64,000 nucleotides of DNA, taken from NCBI GenBank assembly GCA_944350345.1, contig CALVOP010000001.1, forward strand, positions 1 to 64,000. The letters are read 5' to 3'. The notes under the pieces were generated by a model, which made no database searches, had not been told where the DNA came from, and saw nothing but the letters and a program-made list of their open reading frames with translations. Source of the stretch: an uncultured Bacilli bacterium. Its GTDB lineage: Bacteria > Bacillota_I > Bacilli_A > RF39 > UBA660. Position 1 is the stretch's first letter. Each line of letters opens with the position of its first letter. Below are positions 28,661-34,747 of this stretch, in pieces. The position numbers and the translations under genes were made by a program.

Positions 28661-28686
28661 AAAATGCCAAGTTGTTGGCATTTTTT
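28659..28686. terminator. Bidirectional terminator between hsp20 and trxB
   Basis: AAAAAATGCCAA-GTTG-TTGGCATTTTTT. Serves hsp20 on the plus strand and the nrd-trxB operon on the minus strand; the trxB stop lies in its arm. Confidence 0.9.
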
Positions 28687-29575
28687 AATTTTGCAAATAA
28701 TTTAAAGCGTTTATAGCTGCAACAGTTCCATCACTTACAGCCGTGGTTACTTGTCTCACATTTTTATTTCTACAATCTCCAGCAACGAAAATACCAGGCA
28801 AGTTAGTTAACGTATCAACACTATCATAATATTCATTATCAGTTTTATTTAAATTTAATTTAATACTAGTTTCAGGATCCATTCCAATTGACAAAAATAA
28901 CCCATTAACTTGAATTTCTTTTTCACAAATTAAGTCCTTAACAACAATTCTTTCTAACTTATCAACACCTAAATATTGAGTAACATTAGAATTTAATAAT
29001 ATTTTAACATTTTGAAGTTTACTAACTTTTTCTTTTAACTTATTTTCACACCTTAAATCTTTACCTCTATAAATTAAATATACTTTATCGCATAAAGATG
29101 ATAAATAAATTGCATTTATAACAGCACTATTAGCGCCTCCAACCACAGCGACAACTTTATTTTTATAAAAAGGACCATCGCAAGTAGCACAAAAATGAAT
29201 ACCTGAACCAATAAATTCTTCTTCTTTTTCCAAATTTAATTTTCTATGTTTAACACCTGTAGCAATTATAACCGTTTTTGTCTCATAAACAGCATTGTCG
29301 ACAAAAACTTTTTTTATCTCACCATTTTCAATTGACTTTACCTCGCCAATTTCAATATCAACCCCAAGATCAACCACTTGTTCATAAAACGTATCTACAA
29401 GTTCACTTCCACTCACACTTTTAAATCCAGGATAATTTTCAACCAAAGGAGAAGAAGCAATTTGTCCACCAATACTTTCCTTTTCAATTATTAAAGTTTT
29501 AGCACCACCACGAGCTAAATAGATGCCAGCTGTTAACCCAGCTGGCCCTGCTCCAATTACAATTGCATCATACAT
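28685..29575 (-). CDS. trxB: Thioredoxin reductase
   Basis: 296 residues from the ATG that overlaps the nrdD stop. FAD site DAIVIGAGPAGLTAGIYLAR; redox site FCATCDGPF (CATC); NADPH motif VVAVVGGANSAVINAIYL; C-terminal FAD motif PGIFVAGDCRNKNVRQVTTA. The NADPH motif reads GGANSA where GGGxSA is common. Last gene of the ribonucleotide reductase operon. This points to use of NADPH through TrxB to re-reduce the glutaredoxin-like tail of NrdD; that link is inferred from context. Confidence 0.93.
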   Translation of the reverse strand: MYDAIVIGAGPAGLTAGIYLARGGAKTLIIEKESIGGQIASSPLVENYPGFKSVSGSELVDTFYEQVVDLGVDIEIGEVKSIENGEIKKVFVDNAVYETKTVIIATGVKHRKLNLEKEEEFIGSGIHFCATCDGPFYKNKVVAVVGGANSAVINAIYLSSLCDKVYLIYRGKDLRCENKLKEKVSKLQNVKILLNSNVTQYLGVDKLERIVVKDLICEKEIQVNGLFLSIGMDPETSIKLNLNKTDNEYYDSVDTLTNLPGIFVAGDCRNKNVRQVTTAVSDGTVAAINALNYLQN

Positions 29576-31907
29576 GACAAACCACATTTTCATTTACATA
29601 TTTTTTAATATTAGAAATATTTTTAATTAGTTCAACTTCACCATTTTTTATAACCACTAAAGTAGGGGCTTGTTTAACGCCATAAGATAAACTTAAATCA
29701 GCATCTTTTTCAGCATCAACGTATTTATAATCAACTTCAGCATCATCTAACACTTTTTTAGCCATTTTACAATTAGGGCAAGTCTTAGTTCCAAAAAGTA
29801 ATATTCCATCTTCAACTTTTTTTGAATGAGGTTCTTTAGAACAATTAACATCATACAATTTACGCATCTTATATTCTTTAGCTTTACCATCATTCCAGTT
29901 TTTAACTGGCCTATAATAACCTGTAATTCTACTATAAACTTCTGTTTCGCCATCGCAAACAGGGCATTTAAATACTTCACCTGCAAAATAACCATGCTTC
30001 TTACAAACAGAATATGTAGGACTCAAAGTATAATAAGGCAACTTATAATTTTCTGCAATCTTCCTAACTAAATTAGCTGCAGCTTTCCAATCAGGCAATC
30101 TTTCACCCAAGAATGCATGGAAAACAGTACCTGATGTGTATAAAGTTTGAAGTTCATCCTGAATATCCAAAGCTTCGAAAATATCACTAGTAAATCCAAC
30201 TGGTAAATGAGAACTATTAGTATAATAAGGTGTATCATCATCAGAAGCAGTAATAATTCCAGGATACAAGCTTTTATCTTTTTTAGCTAAACGATAAGAC
30301 GTACTTTCTGCAGGAGTTGCCTCTAAATTATATAAGTCACCATATTCTTCCTGATAATCAGAAAGTTTTTCTCTCATATAATTAAGAACATCTTTAGTAA
30401 ATTTTTGAGCTTTTTCATTAGTTAAATCTTCTTTAATCCACTTAGCATTTAAACAAGCTTCATTCATACCTACTAAACCTATAGTTGAAAAATGGTTATT
30501 AAAAGTACCTAAATATCTTTTAGTATAAGGGTACAATCCTTCATCAAGCAGTTTAGTTATAACATTTCTTTTTACCTTTAAACTTCTAGCAGAAATGTTC
30601 ATCATTTTCTCTAATCTCTCATAAAAATCTTTTTCATCTTTAGCCAAATAAGCAATTCTTGGCATATTAATTGTAACAACACCAATAGACCCAGTAGATT
30701 CTCCACTACCAAAATATCCACCAGACTTTTTTCTTAACTCCCTTAAATCAAGTCTTAAACGACAACACATACTTCTAACATCACTTGGCTCCATATCGCT
30801 ATTTATATAATTTGAAAAATAAGGAGTACCATATTTTGCTGTCATTTCAAACAATAATTTATTATTTTCACTTTCTGTCCAATCAAAATTTTTAGTAATT
30901 GAATACGTAGGAATTGGATATTGGAAACCTCTACCATTAGCATCACCTTCAATCATAATTTCAATGAAAGCTTTATTTACCATATCCATTTCTTTTTGAC
31001 AATCTTTATACTTAAAATCAACTTCTTTTCCACCAATTATACAATTTAATTCAGCTAAATCATTTGGAACAACCCAATCTAAAGTTATATTGGTAAAAGG
31101 AGCTTGAGTTCCCCATCTACTTGGAGTATTTACGCCATAAACAAATGATTGAATACATTGTTTAACCTCTTTTTGAGACAAATTATCAATTTTAACAAAA
31201 GGTGCCAAATAAGTATCAAAAGAAGAAAATGCTTGTGCACCGGCCCATTCATTTTGCATAATACCTAAAAAGTTAACCATTTGATTACACAAAGTACTTA
31301 AATGTTTTGCAGGACTTGATGTTATTTTGCCTGGAACGCCACCCAAGCCTTCTTGAATTAATTGCTTCAAACTCCAACCAGCACAGTAGCCAGTCAACAT
31401 AGATAAATCATGCAAATGTATATCACAATTTCTATGTGCATCAGCTATTTCCTTATCATAAACTTCACTTAACCAATAATTAGCTGTAATAGCCCCTGAA
31501 TTACTTAAAATTAAACCGCCTACAGAATATGTAACAGTAGAATTTTCCTTAACTCTCCAGTCAGTAACATTGATATAACTATTTACAACATCCTTATAAT
31601 CCAAAATAGTTGATTGCATTGCGCGTTGTTTTTCATGCAATTTTCTATATAAAATATAAGCTTTTGCAACATCTGCATATCCAGCTTGCGAAAGAACTTT
31701 TTCAACACTATCTTGAATATCTTCAACATCTATGATGTCATCTTTAACTTTACTTTCAAAATCAGCAGTAACTTTTAATGACAAGAAATCAATTACATTT
31801 TCATCATAATTTTTATCTTCTGCATCAAACGCTTTAGTAATAGCTGCTCCTATCTTTTTAATATCAAATGACACTATTTTGCCATCTCTTTTTCTAACCT
31901 TATACAT
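29568..31907 (-). CDS. nrdD: Anaerobic ribonucleoside-triphosphate reductase with fused C-terminal glutaredoxin-like domain
   Basis: 779 residues. ATP-cone at 1-95 (VRKRDGKIVSFDIKKIGAAI). The ten-stranded barrel follows, with catalytic Cys candidates in VRSMCCRLRLD. Then the zinc site (CKKHGYF ... CPVC) and the glycyl radical loop SRITGYYRPV near residue 680. Unlike ordinary NrdD, about 80 more residues follow: LLFGTKTCPNCKMAKKVLDD, a CxxC redoxin, then APTLVVIKNGEV. Some class III enzymes (NrdD2/NrdD3 types) take electrons from redoxins instead of formate; a fused redoxin plus trxB fits that. Makes dNTPs without oxygen. Confidence 0.96.
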   Translation of the reverse strand: MYKVRKRDGKIVSFDIKKIGAAITKAFDAEDKNYDENVIDFLSLKVTADFESKVKDDIIDVEDIQDSVEKVLSQAGYADVAKAYILYRKLHEKQRAMQSTILDYKDVVNSYINVTDWRVKENSTVTYSVGGLILSNSGAITANYWLSEVYDKEIADAHRNCDIHLHDLSMLTGYCAGWSLKQLIQEGLGGVPGKITSSPAKHLSTLCNQMVNFLGIMQNEWAGAQAFSSFDTYLAPFVKIDNLSQKEVKQCIQSFVYGVNTPSRWGTQAPFTNITLDWVVPNDLAELNCIIGGKEVDFKYKDCQKEMDMVNKAFIEIMIEGDANGRGFQYPIPTYSITKNFDWTESENNKLLFEMTAKYGTPYFSNYINSDMEPSDVRSMCCRLRLDLRELRKKSGGYFGSGESTGSIGVVTINMPRIAYLAKDEKDFYERLEKMMNISARSLKVKRNVITKLLDEGLYPYTKRYLGTFNNHFSTIGLVGMNEACLNAKWIKEDLTNEKAQKFTKDVLNYMREKLSDYQEEYGDLYNLEATPAESTSYRLAKKDKSLYPGIITASDDDTPYYTNSSHLPVGFTSDIFEALDIQDELQTLYTSGTVFHAFLGERLPDWKAAANLVRKIAENYKLPYYTLSPTYSVCKKHGYFAGEVFKCPVCDGETEVYSRITGYYRPVKNWNDGKAKEYKMRKLYDVNCSKEPHSKKVEDGILLFGTKTCPNCKMAKKVLDDAEVDYKYVDAEKDADLSLSYGVKQAPTLVVIKNGEVELIKNISNIKKYVNENVVCHV

Positions 31908-31937: not shown

Positions 31938-32621
31938 TTATATTCCTCTAACTTTAACATTAGGAAATTTTTCATTTAATTTAGCACACATTTCTAAAAG
32001 TTCATCTTTTGTAAAACCTTTTAAATTAGCATCTAAAACCCTAGAACTACTTTCAAAATTTTGTAAAAAATATTTAGAATCTTTACCAACAAATTCACAA
32101 ATACCTAACAAATCATTTAAAGTATGATAATTTTTAACAACCGTTGTTCTAAATTCAAAATCTAATCCAGACTCTTTTATAAGTTTTACACTTTCAGAAA
32201 TTTTATCTAAGTCAACACTTACCCCACTTACTACTGAATAATTATTATTGCTACTTTTTATATCCATTGCAATATAATCAATCAAATTTAATTCTATTAT
32301 TTTTTTTAAAACCTCGGGTTTAACACCATTCGTATCCAATTTAACTTTTAATCCTAGCTCTTTTACCTTATTTAAAAAACTAACTAAATCTTTTTGCATA
32401 GTTGGTTCTCCACCAGTAATAACCACACCATCGAGCATTTTTTTACGTTTACTCAAATAATCTAAAATCTCATTTTCATCAATTGTTCCATTCTTGAAAC
32501 AGATCAAATTACTATTATGACAAAAAGGACATTTAAAATTACAACCTTGAGTAAAAACAATAGCCGCGACAGAACCAGGATAATCAGTTAAAGTCATTTT
32601 TTCAAAACCGCTTATTTCCAT
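31938..32621 (-). CDS. nrdG: Anaerobic ribonucleotide reductase activating protein
   Basis: 227 residues. Radical SAM enzyme that makes the glycyl radical on NrdD. Cluster motif CNFKCPFC (Cys-x3-Cys-x2-Cys) near residue 30, SAM-binding GGEP, then a partial barrel. It starts at the ATG sharing one base with the stop of the NrdD-like gene (TGATG), with AAGGAAG before it. Longer than the 150-180-residue NrdG of enteric bacteria; resembles the long NrdG/PflA-like group. Confidence 0.92.
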   Translation of the reverse strand: MEISGFEKMTLTDYPGSVAAIVFTQGCNFKCPFCHNSNLICFKNGTIDENEILDYLSKRKKMLDGVVITGGEPTMQKDLVSFLNKVKELGLKVKLDTNGVKPEVLKKIIELNLIDYIAMDIKSSNNNYSVVSGVSVDLDKISESVKLIKESGLDFEFRTTVVKNYHTLNDLLGICEFVGKDSKYFLQNFESSSRVLDANLKGFTKDELLEMCAKLNEKFPNVKVRGI

Positions 32622-34573
32622 CAAGTCACTTCCTTACTTCTAAACTTTAACAACCCTATATCATTATCAAATAAATTAAATATCATTTCTTCAAGTTTAT
32701 TAATACTTATACTCTTGTTTAACTTTATTTCATAAACACTTCCGCCACTTATAAACTTTTGTATTTCACCAATACTTTTATAATCATCTTTTAAAATTGG
32801 TAAATTATATACAGAATCATAACTATATTTATTTTTTATTTCTTTTCTTATTCCATAAATAGATTTATCCAAAGTCATCAATTCCCTCGCAGCCAAACTT
32901 TCATAAGGCGCGTTAATATAAAAATTTAATCTTGTTTCTTCACGATAGTTTAAACACTTATAATTTAAAAACTTTAATATATCTCTAAGCACAGATAATT
33001 GCTTACTCTCATCCTTTTCCAAAAGATTAACGCACTCTTTTAAACCTATCACACCAATCAATAAATCACCATTTTTTATAACTTTTCTTATTTTTTGTCC
33101 ATTTTCAAGTTTTTGATTACTCATTACGTTATTATTAAACAAATAATCATAATTATCTTTATTCTTATTTCCAATAGTTTCAAAAGTCAATAATAGTTCA
33201 TTTTTAACAGTTTCTAACACAAAATCTAATTTATTATAAAAATTCTTTATCGTATCATTTTCAAATTCTAATCCTAATCTAGCAAAATTAATAGAAGTAA
33301 TTGCAATCATCATTCTACCAACAGAACCACTCTCATCATCATTATTATTTTCAAAAATTCTAACACCATCAGAGAAATATTCAACTTCATTTATATTCTT
33401 GTTATATGAAGCATTTAGATTAGCAATAAGAACATTTTTTCCATTAAGTACTAAAGAACAAATTTCTTTCAAATAATCTTTATTAATCTGATTATATTTA
33501 AATGTTGCAGAAACATTACTTAATCTATCTAACTCATTTAAAACTTCAATAATTATTTTATTTAAACATGAACCTATATAATTAGAACTAGTGCCAAAAC
33601 TAAATGAATATTTCCTATTTGAAGCATCTAAAGTACAAAATAGATTTTTAATATTTAAATAAAAGTCATTTTTACATTTATTAACACTATCTTTATAAGC
33701 TTGACTAAATATATTTTCAACTTGAGAAGATAACATATATATTGAATAGTTAGACATCTCAAACATTATATCAGATTCTTTATTAACCATTTCAATTATC
33801 TTATTTAAATTAATATATTGATCAAATCCGGATACTTTCAAATACTTAGACAAATAATCAATATAAATCTTTTTAAATGTCTGCAAGCAATATTGTTCTA
33901 ACAACTTATCCAAAGCTGGAATACTAATTTCGCCATTTACTTCAGTACTTAAACTTTTCAAATAGTAAATAAAACTATCAAAAGAATTATTTCTTAAATA
34001 TTCAGTCATATCGATATGAATATTAGATAATCTACCTAAAGAAAAATTACACATATCATGAATAAAAATATTTCCTTCATCATGCTCTCTAAGATATTTA
34101 TTATCTATTATATAAGATTTTGTTATTTCATTAATAACCGTCATCCCATATTTAACAACCACATCATTAAGTTTAAACGTATTATCACTTAGTAAAACAT
34201 TATCATCGTTTATTTTTTCAATAGCTTTTAAAAATTTATGCTGTTGTTTTTGAGTAAATATTTTTCTACTAATAGCCCTTTTTTTCCTATATTCACTAAA
34301 AGCCGTATAAACTTCAAAATATTTGTCTTCCTGTAACATAGCTTCAATAATATCTTGAATATCTTCAACATTTATTGTTTTTCTATTCTCATAATTATTT
34401 TCTATATATTTTAAAACTTTTTCATAGACCTTATTAATACTAGATTCATCACTATTATCATATACACTATCAAAGGCACTTTTAATTGCAACAGCTATCT
34501 TATAACTATTAAAATTAACTCTTTGACCACTTCTTTTTACAACTACAAGATCGTCAAATATATCTTTTTGCAA
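32621..34573 (-). CDS. NrdD-like pseudoenzyme with ATP-cone, lacking catalytic Cys and glycyl radical site
   Basis: 650 residues, first in the reductase operon. The N-terminus (about 8-105) is an ATP-cone (VVKRSGQRVNFNSYKIAVAI) like that of NrdD. The middle resembles NrdD: IHDMCNFSLG and GSVGRMMIAITSINFARLGL (GSIGVVTINMPRIAYL in the true NrdD). But where NrdD has VRSMCCRLRLD this protein has LIANLNASYN without Cys, and it ends without the zinc cysteines or a TGYY radical loop. So it should not reduce nucleotides. Likely a regulatory or structural partner; dATP/ATP sensing is a reasonable guess. Confidence 0.75.
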   Translation of the reverse strand: MQKDIFDDLVVVKRSGQRVNFNSYKIAVAIKSAFDSVYDNSDESSINKVYEKVLKYIENNYENRKTINVEDIQDIIEAMLQEDKYFEVYTAFSEYRKKRAISRKIFTQKQQHKFLKAIEKINDDNVLLSDNTFKLNDVVVKYGMTVINEITKSYIIDNKYLREHDEGNIFIHDMCNFSLGRLSNIHIDMTEYLRNNSFDSFIYYLKSLSTEVNGEISIPALDKLLEQYCLQTFKKIYIDYLSKYLKVSGFDQYINLNKIIEMVNKESDIMFEMSNYSIYMLSSQVENIFSQAYKDSVNKCKNDFYLNIKNLFCTLDASNRKYSFSFGTSSNYIGSCLNKIIIEVLNELDRLSNVSATFKYNQINKDYLKEICSLVLNGKNVLIANLNASYNKNINEVEYFSDGVRIFENNNDDESGSVGRMMIAITSINFARLGLEFENDTIKNFYNKLDFVLETVKNELLLTFETIGNKNKDNYDYLFNNNVMSNQKLENGQKIRKVIKNGDLLIGVIGLKECVNLLEKDESKQLSVLRDILKFLNYKCLNYREETRLNFYINAPYESLAARELMTLDKSIYGIRKEIKNKYSYDSVYNLPILKDDYKSIGEIQKFISGGSVYEIKLNKSISINKLEEMIFNLFDNDIGLLKFRSKEVT

Positions 34574-34602
34574 TTAAATCACCTCCTATGCTGACTACAT
34601 TA

Positions 34603-34631
34603 ATCTTACTAAAGGTACACATATAAGTCAA
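34603..34631 (-). promoter_or_regulatory. Promoter of the ribonucleotide reductase operon
   Basis: Minus strand: -35 TTGACT (34626-34631), 17-base spacer, -10 TAAGAT (34603-34608), about 30 bases before the NrdD-like gene. I looked for paired NrdR boxes around it and saw none that are convincing. Confidence 0.75.
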
Positions 34632-34718: not shown

Positions 34719-34747
34719 AAAAGTAAATATTATGATATTTACTTTTT
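34719..34747 (-). terminator. Terminator of the acyl-CoA ligase unit
   Basis: Minus strand AAAGTAAATATCATAATATTTACTTT with T residues, just after the stop at 34752. Confidence 0.75.

Follow-up and report, generated by a model that had tools for sequence, protein, structure and literature searches.

A catalytically dead NrdD paralogue with a conserved ATP-cone, a putative regulatory subunit, beside active class III ribonucleotide reductase operons in a family of Bacilli

The present study describes a catalytically dead paralogue of the class III (anaerobic) ribonucleotide reductase (RNR) NrdD, referred to here as pseudo-NrdD, which keeps its ATP-cone and is encoded beside active NrdD operons in one family of Bacilli. 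From sequence comparison we give slightly better than an even chance to the reading that it is a regulatory subunit of class III RNR that has no catalytic role but senses ATP/dATP and acts on the adjacent active NrdD. RNR determines how much DNA precursor is supplied, and the ATP-cone switch is its textbook allosteric device, seated on a working RNR subunit or on NrdR.

The gene and its operon

The window (the whole stretch of 64,000 nucleotides that was analysed) holds four co-directional genes, with pseudo-NrdD first, followed by nrdG2, nrdD with a fused glutaredoxin, and trxB. The features of the operon and of the sequence 5′ of it are as follows.

28685..29593, minus strand: trxB-like thioredoxin reductase, final operon gene (domain matches; position conserved in relatives)
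29568..31907, minus strand: nrdD, active class III reductase of PRK08270 type (PRK08270, 1147 bits; Pfam)
31938..32624, minus strand: nrdG2, radical-SAM activase (TIGR02495, 227 bits, over the cut-off)
32621..34573, minus strand: pseudo-NrdD, a catalytically dead paralogue of class III RNR, 650 aa long, made up of ATP-cone, linker and the core of the barrel and lacking the glycyl-radical domain
34582..34587, minus strand: ribosome-binding site AGGAGG, 5′ of the pseudo-NrdD TTG start (sequence; kept in aligned relatives)
34603..34631, minus strand: promoter-like TTGACT-17-TAAGAT directly 5′ of the pseudo-NrdD gene (conserved in the genus)
34723..34742, minus strand: possible terminator of the gene upstream of pseudo-NrdD, a nearly A+T-only hairpin followed by a T-run (sequence; missed by a GC-based scan)

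In the window, the pseudo-NrdD frame starts with TTG after the AGGAGG and runs without an internal stop, and its own stop codon is overlapped by the likely ATG start of nrdG2 at 32621 (TGATG). Thus, a preliminary description that took the frame to be intact over 650 residues, with its ATP-cone, first in the operon and coupled to nrdG, is borne out. Five genomes, one of them the more distantly related G207, have largely preserved both the promoter-like sequence and the leader that runs from it to the start codon. Promoter-like sites in this region number 6 against 3.7 ± 1.7 by chance, a slight excess. The operon gave no Rfam match to a known RNA or riboswitch, and a PF02867 search of the window genome found no class I or II RNR.

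The active NrdD of the window has its own ATP-cone and the motifs RSMCCRL and RITGYY. Since a glutaredoxin domain is fused to its C-terminus (29568-31907) and trxB comes next, the electron supply of this enzyme seems to be built into the operon.

Retention of the fold and loss of the catalytic parts

Pfam recognises an ATP-cone in pseudo-NrdD (PF03477; residues 9-99, 61 bits, cut-off 25.8) as well as the NRDD domain (PF13597; residues 143-642, 105 bits, cut-off 26.2), for which the neighbouring true NrdD scores 645 bits. The best NCBIfam model is PRK07111, whose 168 bits fall far below the cut-off of 764. An AlphaFold2 model (pLDDT 84.9, pTM 0.76) finds its best match among solved structures in the formate-type (PRK07111) enzyme PcNrdD of P. 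copri (8P23), with a Z of 40.5 over 481 residues at 2.7 Å. The two proteins are homologous over ATP-cone, linker and barrel core, and their a-site contacts are identical. The preliminary description had credited the protein with parts of the NrdD barrel; the barrel is indeed present, and according to the model it is most of the fold, rather than parts, that is retained.

The residues published for PcNrdD (PMC11226230) were located in an alignment that combined 33 main-group and 10 second-group dead members with 14 active PRK07111-type NrdDs. The thiyl cysteine, Cys416 of PcNrdD, is a cysteine in 14/14 active relatives and in 0/43 dead members. Its position in the window protein is taken by an aspartate:

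33368..33370, minus strand: Asp402 codon, aligned with the thiyl-radical Cys416 of PcNrdD (alignments)

Around it, the active motif YMGCRT has become YFSDGVR in the alignment with active relatives. The 'CC pair region' earlier reported as lacking needs rewording in this light: the catalytic cysteine is gone, but a CC pair is a feature of the other NrdD subtype, the ancestral formate-type motif being MGCRT. Cys171 likewise occurs in all 14 active enzymes and in none of the 43 dead ones (N184 in the window protein), and the NxN flap is found in 14/14 active NrdDs and in no dead member. The HxHD motif is mostly lost across the dead family, with F-x-H-D in the window protein. Among the 43, s-site N298 and loop 2 either vary or have been deleted, and residues of the c-site, too, are lost throughout or scattered. 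The Zn/glycyl-radical domain is missing from 43/43, since all members stop short of it; the zinc cysteines and radical loop are therefore absent, as had been noticed. Asn429, equivalent to N435, is retained.

PcNrdD thus differs from pseudo-NrdD in having the thiyl cysteine, Cys171, the NxN flap, a full HxHD, loop 2 and the Zn/glycyl-radical domain. A search through the 43 sequences for catalytic residues that might have been overlooked found none. Judged by its sequence, pseudo-NrdD is not a reductase and cannot carry out ribonucleotide reduction by the known chemistry.

The ATP-cone is the constrained part

Two segments of the gene are annotated.

34265..34549, minus strand: ATP-cone, residues 9-103, in which the five a-site contacts that were mapped are all present (Pfam PF03477; alignment; contacts from PMC11226230)
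32849..33343, minus strand: further annotated segment within the pseudo-NrdD gene (family alignment, column conservation)

In PcNrdD, the residues K7, R8, Y83, R87 and R91 contact the two nucleotides of the cone or neutralise them (PMC11226230). Their counterparts K13, R14, Y95, R99 and R103 are invariant in 43/43 dead members, and binding of ATP/dATP by the pseudo-NrdD cone is predicted.

Within the genus, dN/dS is 0.10-0.23 for the pseudo-NrdD gene and 0.03-0.12 for its cone, and the neighbouring nrdD, trxB and nrdG2 give 0.04-0.07, 0.16-0.19 and 0.18-0.43, respectively. Pseudo-NrdD is under purifying selection. Mean pairwise identity among dead members is 0.64 in the cone, 0.28 in the N-half of the barrel and 0.44 in the C-half; the corresponding values for active relatives are 0.62, 0.74 and 0.74. 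The constraint pattern of the dead family is therefore inverted relative to that of the active enzymes, and the cone is the only strongly constrained part of pseudo-NrdD. Most columns with at least 95% conservation belong to the cone, the QQHKF linker or the C-half barrel, and residues 201-410 have none.

Descent and distribution

In a tree of 83 NrdD-like proteins, obtained by a quick search and containing several long branches, the dead members group together without exception, 43/43 in a single clade (SH-aLRT 99), and the sister group of that clade consists of active formate-type (PRK07111) NrdDs from the same family. Among the genomes sampled, this clade occurs only in the window's own family of Bacilli; outside it, the relatives listed for the class (346 genomes) and for the phylum (382 genomes) included no member. 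The relatives listed from other families have open frames of at least 714 aa, nearly all of more than 745. A phage origin was considered and rejected, as a scan of viral contigs with two short patterns found no relative. Dead-type genes are present in independent assemblies, and the dead-type homologues in the matches listed are free of internal stops; no decaying orthologue was met among the 43 sequences.

Linkage to active NrdD operons

A survey of gene neighbourhoods, proposed together with the preliminary description, found an active NrdD operon next to the dead gene in nearly every case. A co-directional nrdG2 lies at -38 to +7 nt from the dead gene in 35 loci, and wherever the contig is long enough the order is pseudo-NrdD, nrdG2, nrdD (PRK08270), trxB; in G005 the operon and the dead gene sit on separate contigs. 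In the family sample, 22/26 genomes (17/21 genera) with a PRK08270 NrdD carry the dead clade versus 3/167 without one (Fisher p 7e-22, a value that ignores the kinship of the genomes).

In the clade's second branch, the dead gene and the active operon are divergently oriented and 100-310 bp apart. Its partner is a PMG-type nrdD-nrdG in seven loci (nrdD being visible only in part in two of these, L137 and L068) and nrdG2-nrdD(PRK08270)-trxB in one. The two genomes G187 and G250 of genus g55 have flanking genes of 80-87% identity and a dead paralogue of 66%, which faces the PMG-type operon in one and the PRK08270-type operon in the other. With the same flanks and the same dead paralogue beside another NrdD subtype, the active enzyme has been exchanged while the dead one was retained. 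In the divergent intergenic region (L049:7193-7490, L134:8093-8368), the blocks TTTACAC..AAAA and AATGTTTTTTTT are common to seven aligned loci and kept although the operon on one side was exchanged; they are a candidate shared operator.

An ATP-cone was present in every active NrdD type that was scanned. In 16/20 related genomes outside the family, the PRK08270 NrdD occurs without any other NRDD protein; being paired with a dead NrdD is thus characteristic of this lineage rather than something that the enzyme requires.

Three further loci deserve mention. In G339 (L128:4629-7755), a fragment of a PRK07111-type nrdD at the contig end lies 46 nt 3′ of the dead paralogue with no nrdG between them, and it retains NxN, HxHD and Cys171. 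The PRK08270-like NrdD of G116 (L117:1266-4577; 1104 aa) contains an intein (PF14890 and LAGLIDADG matches) that ends in HN immediately before the catalytic CC motif (THN|CCRL). In G037 (L035:5557-7203), the active nrdD of the operon is an open frame without the residues corresponding to ~211-482 of the window's active NrdD, including the catalytic CC, and trxB is split, which is either an assembly error or a real loss.

Parallel losses in E. coli-type NrdDs

Four genomes with a PRK08270 NrdD (G082, G137, G038 and G177) are without the dead clade. Two of them, G082 (L170:5858-7894) and G137 (L108:5506-7491), have an E. coli-type NrdD with intact MGCR that is truncated at the Zn/glycyl-radical domain, and this domain was not found in any frame just downstream; these proteins are possibly pseudoenzymes in the making. 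In G038 and G177 the E. coli-type NrdD is full-length. Furthermore, G114, G010 and G027 have E. coli-type NrdDs without thiyl cysteine and radical domain directly 5′ of an active nrdD (the G027 protein has a whole cone only if its start lies upstream of the first ATG). Dead NrdDs of this type thus likely represent at least one further independent origin.

Discussion

In the mechanism that we favour, a formate-type (PRK07111) NrdD lost its glycyl-radical domain and active site and retained the ATP-cone and the barrel scaffold. The cone would sense the level of ATP/dATP and signal to the active NrdD encoded alongside, most likely by cone-to-cone or cone-to-barrel contact, as in the dATP-inhibited oligomers of PcNrdD. 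There, dATP in the cone drives tetramer formation; within the tetramers, the roofs of the cones are in contact with outer helices of the C-half barrel, and the cones pair with one another (PMC11226230). The dead family has kept the cone and, to a lesser degree, the C-half barrel; together with the cones of the partners and the contacts in PcNrdD, these parts point to a nucleotide-sensing regulatory subunit of the anaerobic reductase. Through it, dATP would close (or ATP open) the partner NrdD, both the contact with NrdD or NrdG and the sign of the effect being inferred.

Some observations sit uneasily with a subunit. The PRK08270 NrdD generally needs no such partner, as the genomes outside the family indicate, and the barrel and the dimer-interface region of the dead paralogue are highly variable. 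A specific interface is awkward because the neighbouring NrdDs are of different subtypes with low mutual similarity, and a second sensor is not obviously needed because the partner NrdD has an ATP-cone of its own. The data do not separate action on NrdD, on NrdG or on expression; a regulatory role as such fits well, since the cone alone is strongly constrained and the linked active operons are of at least two NrdD subtypes. The preliminary description had proposed either an allosteric partner of NrdD or a nucleotide-responsive regulator: a dead paralogue with a conserved cone under purifying selection is upheld, the allosteric partner has only been made more likely, and the regulator would have to do without a DNA-binding domain.

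Alternatively, pseudo-NrdD could be a dead scaffold that binds NrdG, and its ATP/dATP-dependent hold on the activase, or delivery of it, would control formation of the glycyl radical instead of catalysis. That its frame overlaps or nearly overlaps that of nrdG2 in 35 loci suggests that the two proteins are made in a coupled, stoichiometric manner, and the divergent operons contain nrdG too. However, the natural substrate of NrdG, the glycyl-radical domain, is exactly the missing part, radical formation in PcNrdD is not blocked by dATP (PMC11226230), and at L128 the nrdD fragment follows the dead gene without an intervening nrdG. We therefore consider this alternative unlikely.

Somewhat less probable still is a nucleotide-responsive protein that acts on expression or on a target other than NrdD and NrdG, or that serves as a dNTP sink, in place of the absent NrdR. 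NrdR was absent from 192/193 genomes (over the cut-off), the window genome giving no TIGR00244 match, and the divergent branch has a region of ~300 bp in common with the nrd operon, as is often the case with regulators. Nevertheless, neither Pfam nor the fold revealed a DNA-binding domain in pseudo-NrdD, and NrdR is absent also from the rest of the family, which is mostly without the dead paralogue, and from four relatives outside. A plain replacement of NrdR was discarded, as NrdR is absent equally with and without the dead gene.

The tight operon linkage and retained fold would also suit a scaffold or assembly factor of the reductase that requires no nucleotide signal, but the nucleotide contacts of the cone lie in the most conserved part and a pure scaffold would not need them; we regard this as improbable. 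It is highly improbable that the gene is a decaying remnant or an annotation or assembly artefact: catalytic parts are missing and it evolves faster than NrdD, but 43 members without internal stops among the matches listed, the low dN/dS and the independent assemblies speak against decay. Least credible of all is an enzyme served by a radical domain in trans, as YfiD/GrcA serves pyruvate formate-lyase, for in spite of the barrel fold and Asn429 the NxN flap is lost and HxHD mostly so, and a spare glycyl domain would be no help because thiyl cysteine and Cys171 are missing in 43/43.

The cones of the partners were also considered in another light. Partners of the PMG type show changes at a-site residues, and in most of those of the PRK08270 type R87 is replaced by His. 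The idea that the dead paralogue supplies an intact cone for an eroded one was rejected, as His at R87 is common outside the family too, where the dead clade was not found.

Precedents exist for dead paralogues with a regulatory role, for viral RNR large subunits that are inactive, and for the relocation of ATP-cones to NrdB. In the trypanosomatid prozymes, as with pseudo-NrdD, a dead paralogue is maintained beside an active enzyme; those of AdoMetDC (PMC5201418) and deoxyhypusine synthase (PMC3663545) activate their partner by forming a heteromer. In contrast, these are unrelated enzymes and domains, and the active neighbour of pseudo-NrdD is of a different NrdD subtype and not its nearest paralogue; a heteromer of the two is putative. 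The NrdB of L. blandensis (5OLK; PMC5794259) likewise carries an ATP-cone outside the catalytic polypeptide, which exerts dATP control of RNR; in that system it is a functional NrdB that has the cone fused to it, the catalytic subunit having none (PMC5794259), whereas the cone of pseudo-NrdD is on a dead catalytic subunit and its partner has its own. M45/UL45 of cytomegaloviruses (PMC5469499) are also RNR catalytic subunits turned pseudoenzymes, but these viral relatives of class I R1 act on host signalling and have no RNR operon linkage (PMC5469499). NrdR shares with pseudo-NrdD a cone and uses it to sense ATP/dATP for RNR control; it is, however, a DNA-binding repressor of ~150 aa with a Zn-ribbon, a domain that the Pfam scan did not find at the N-terminus of pseudo-NrdD, which starts at the cone. 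A full-text search, covering part of the literature, found no description of a dead or pseudoenzyme NrdD with an ATP-cone.

Pseudo-NrdD may, as a tentative proposal with somewhat less than an even chance, be the first 'prozyme' of a bacterial RNR, in which a dead reductase serves as a free-standing dATP/ATP sensor that controls whichever active class III NrdD adjoins it, survives a swap of subtype, and arose again from E. coli-type NrdDs. If true, sensing and catalysis of RNR would be divided between two proteins, and nature would provide a tool for asking how cones signal. Such a division could explain how an essential reductase is swapped without loss of control.
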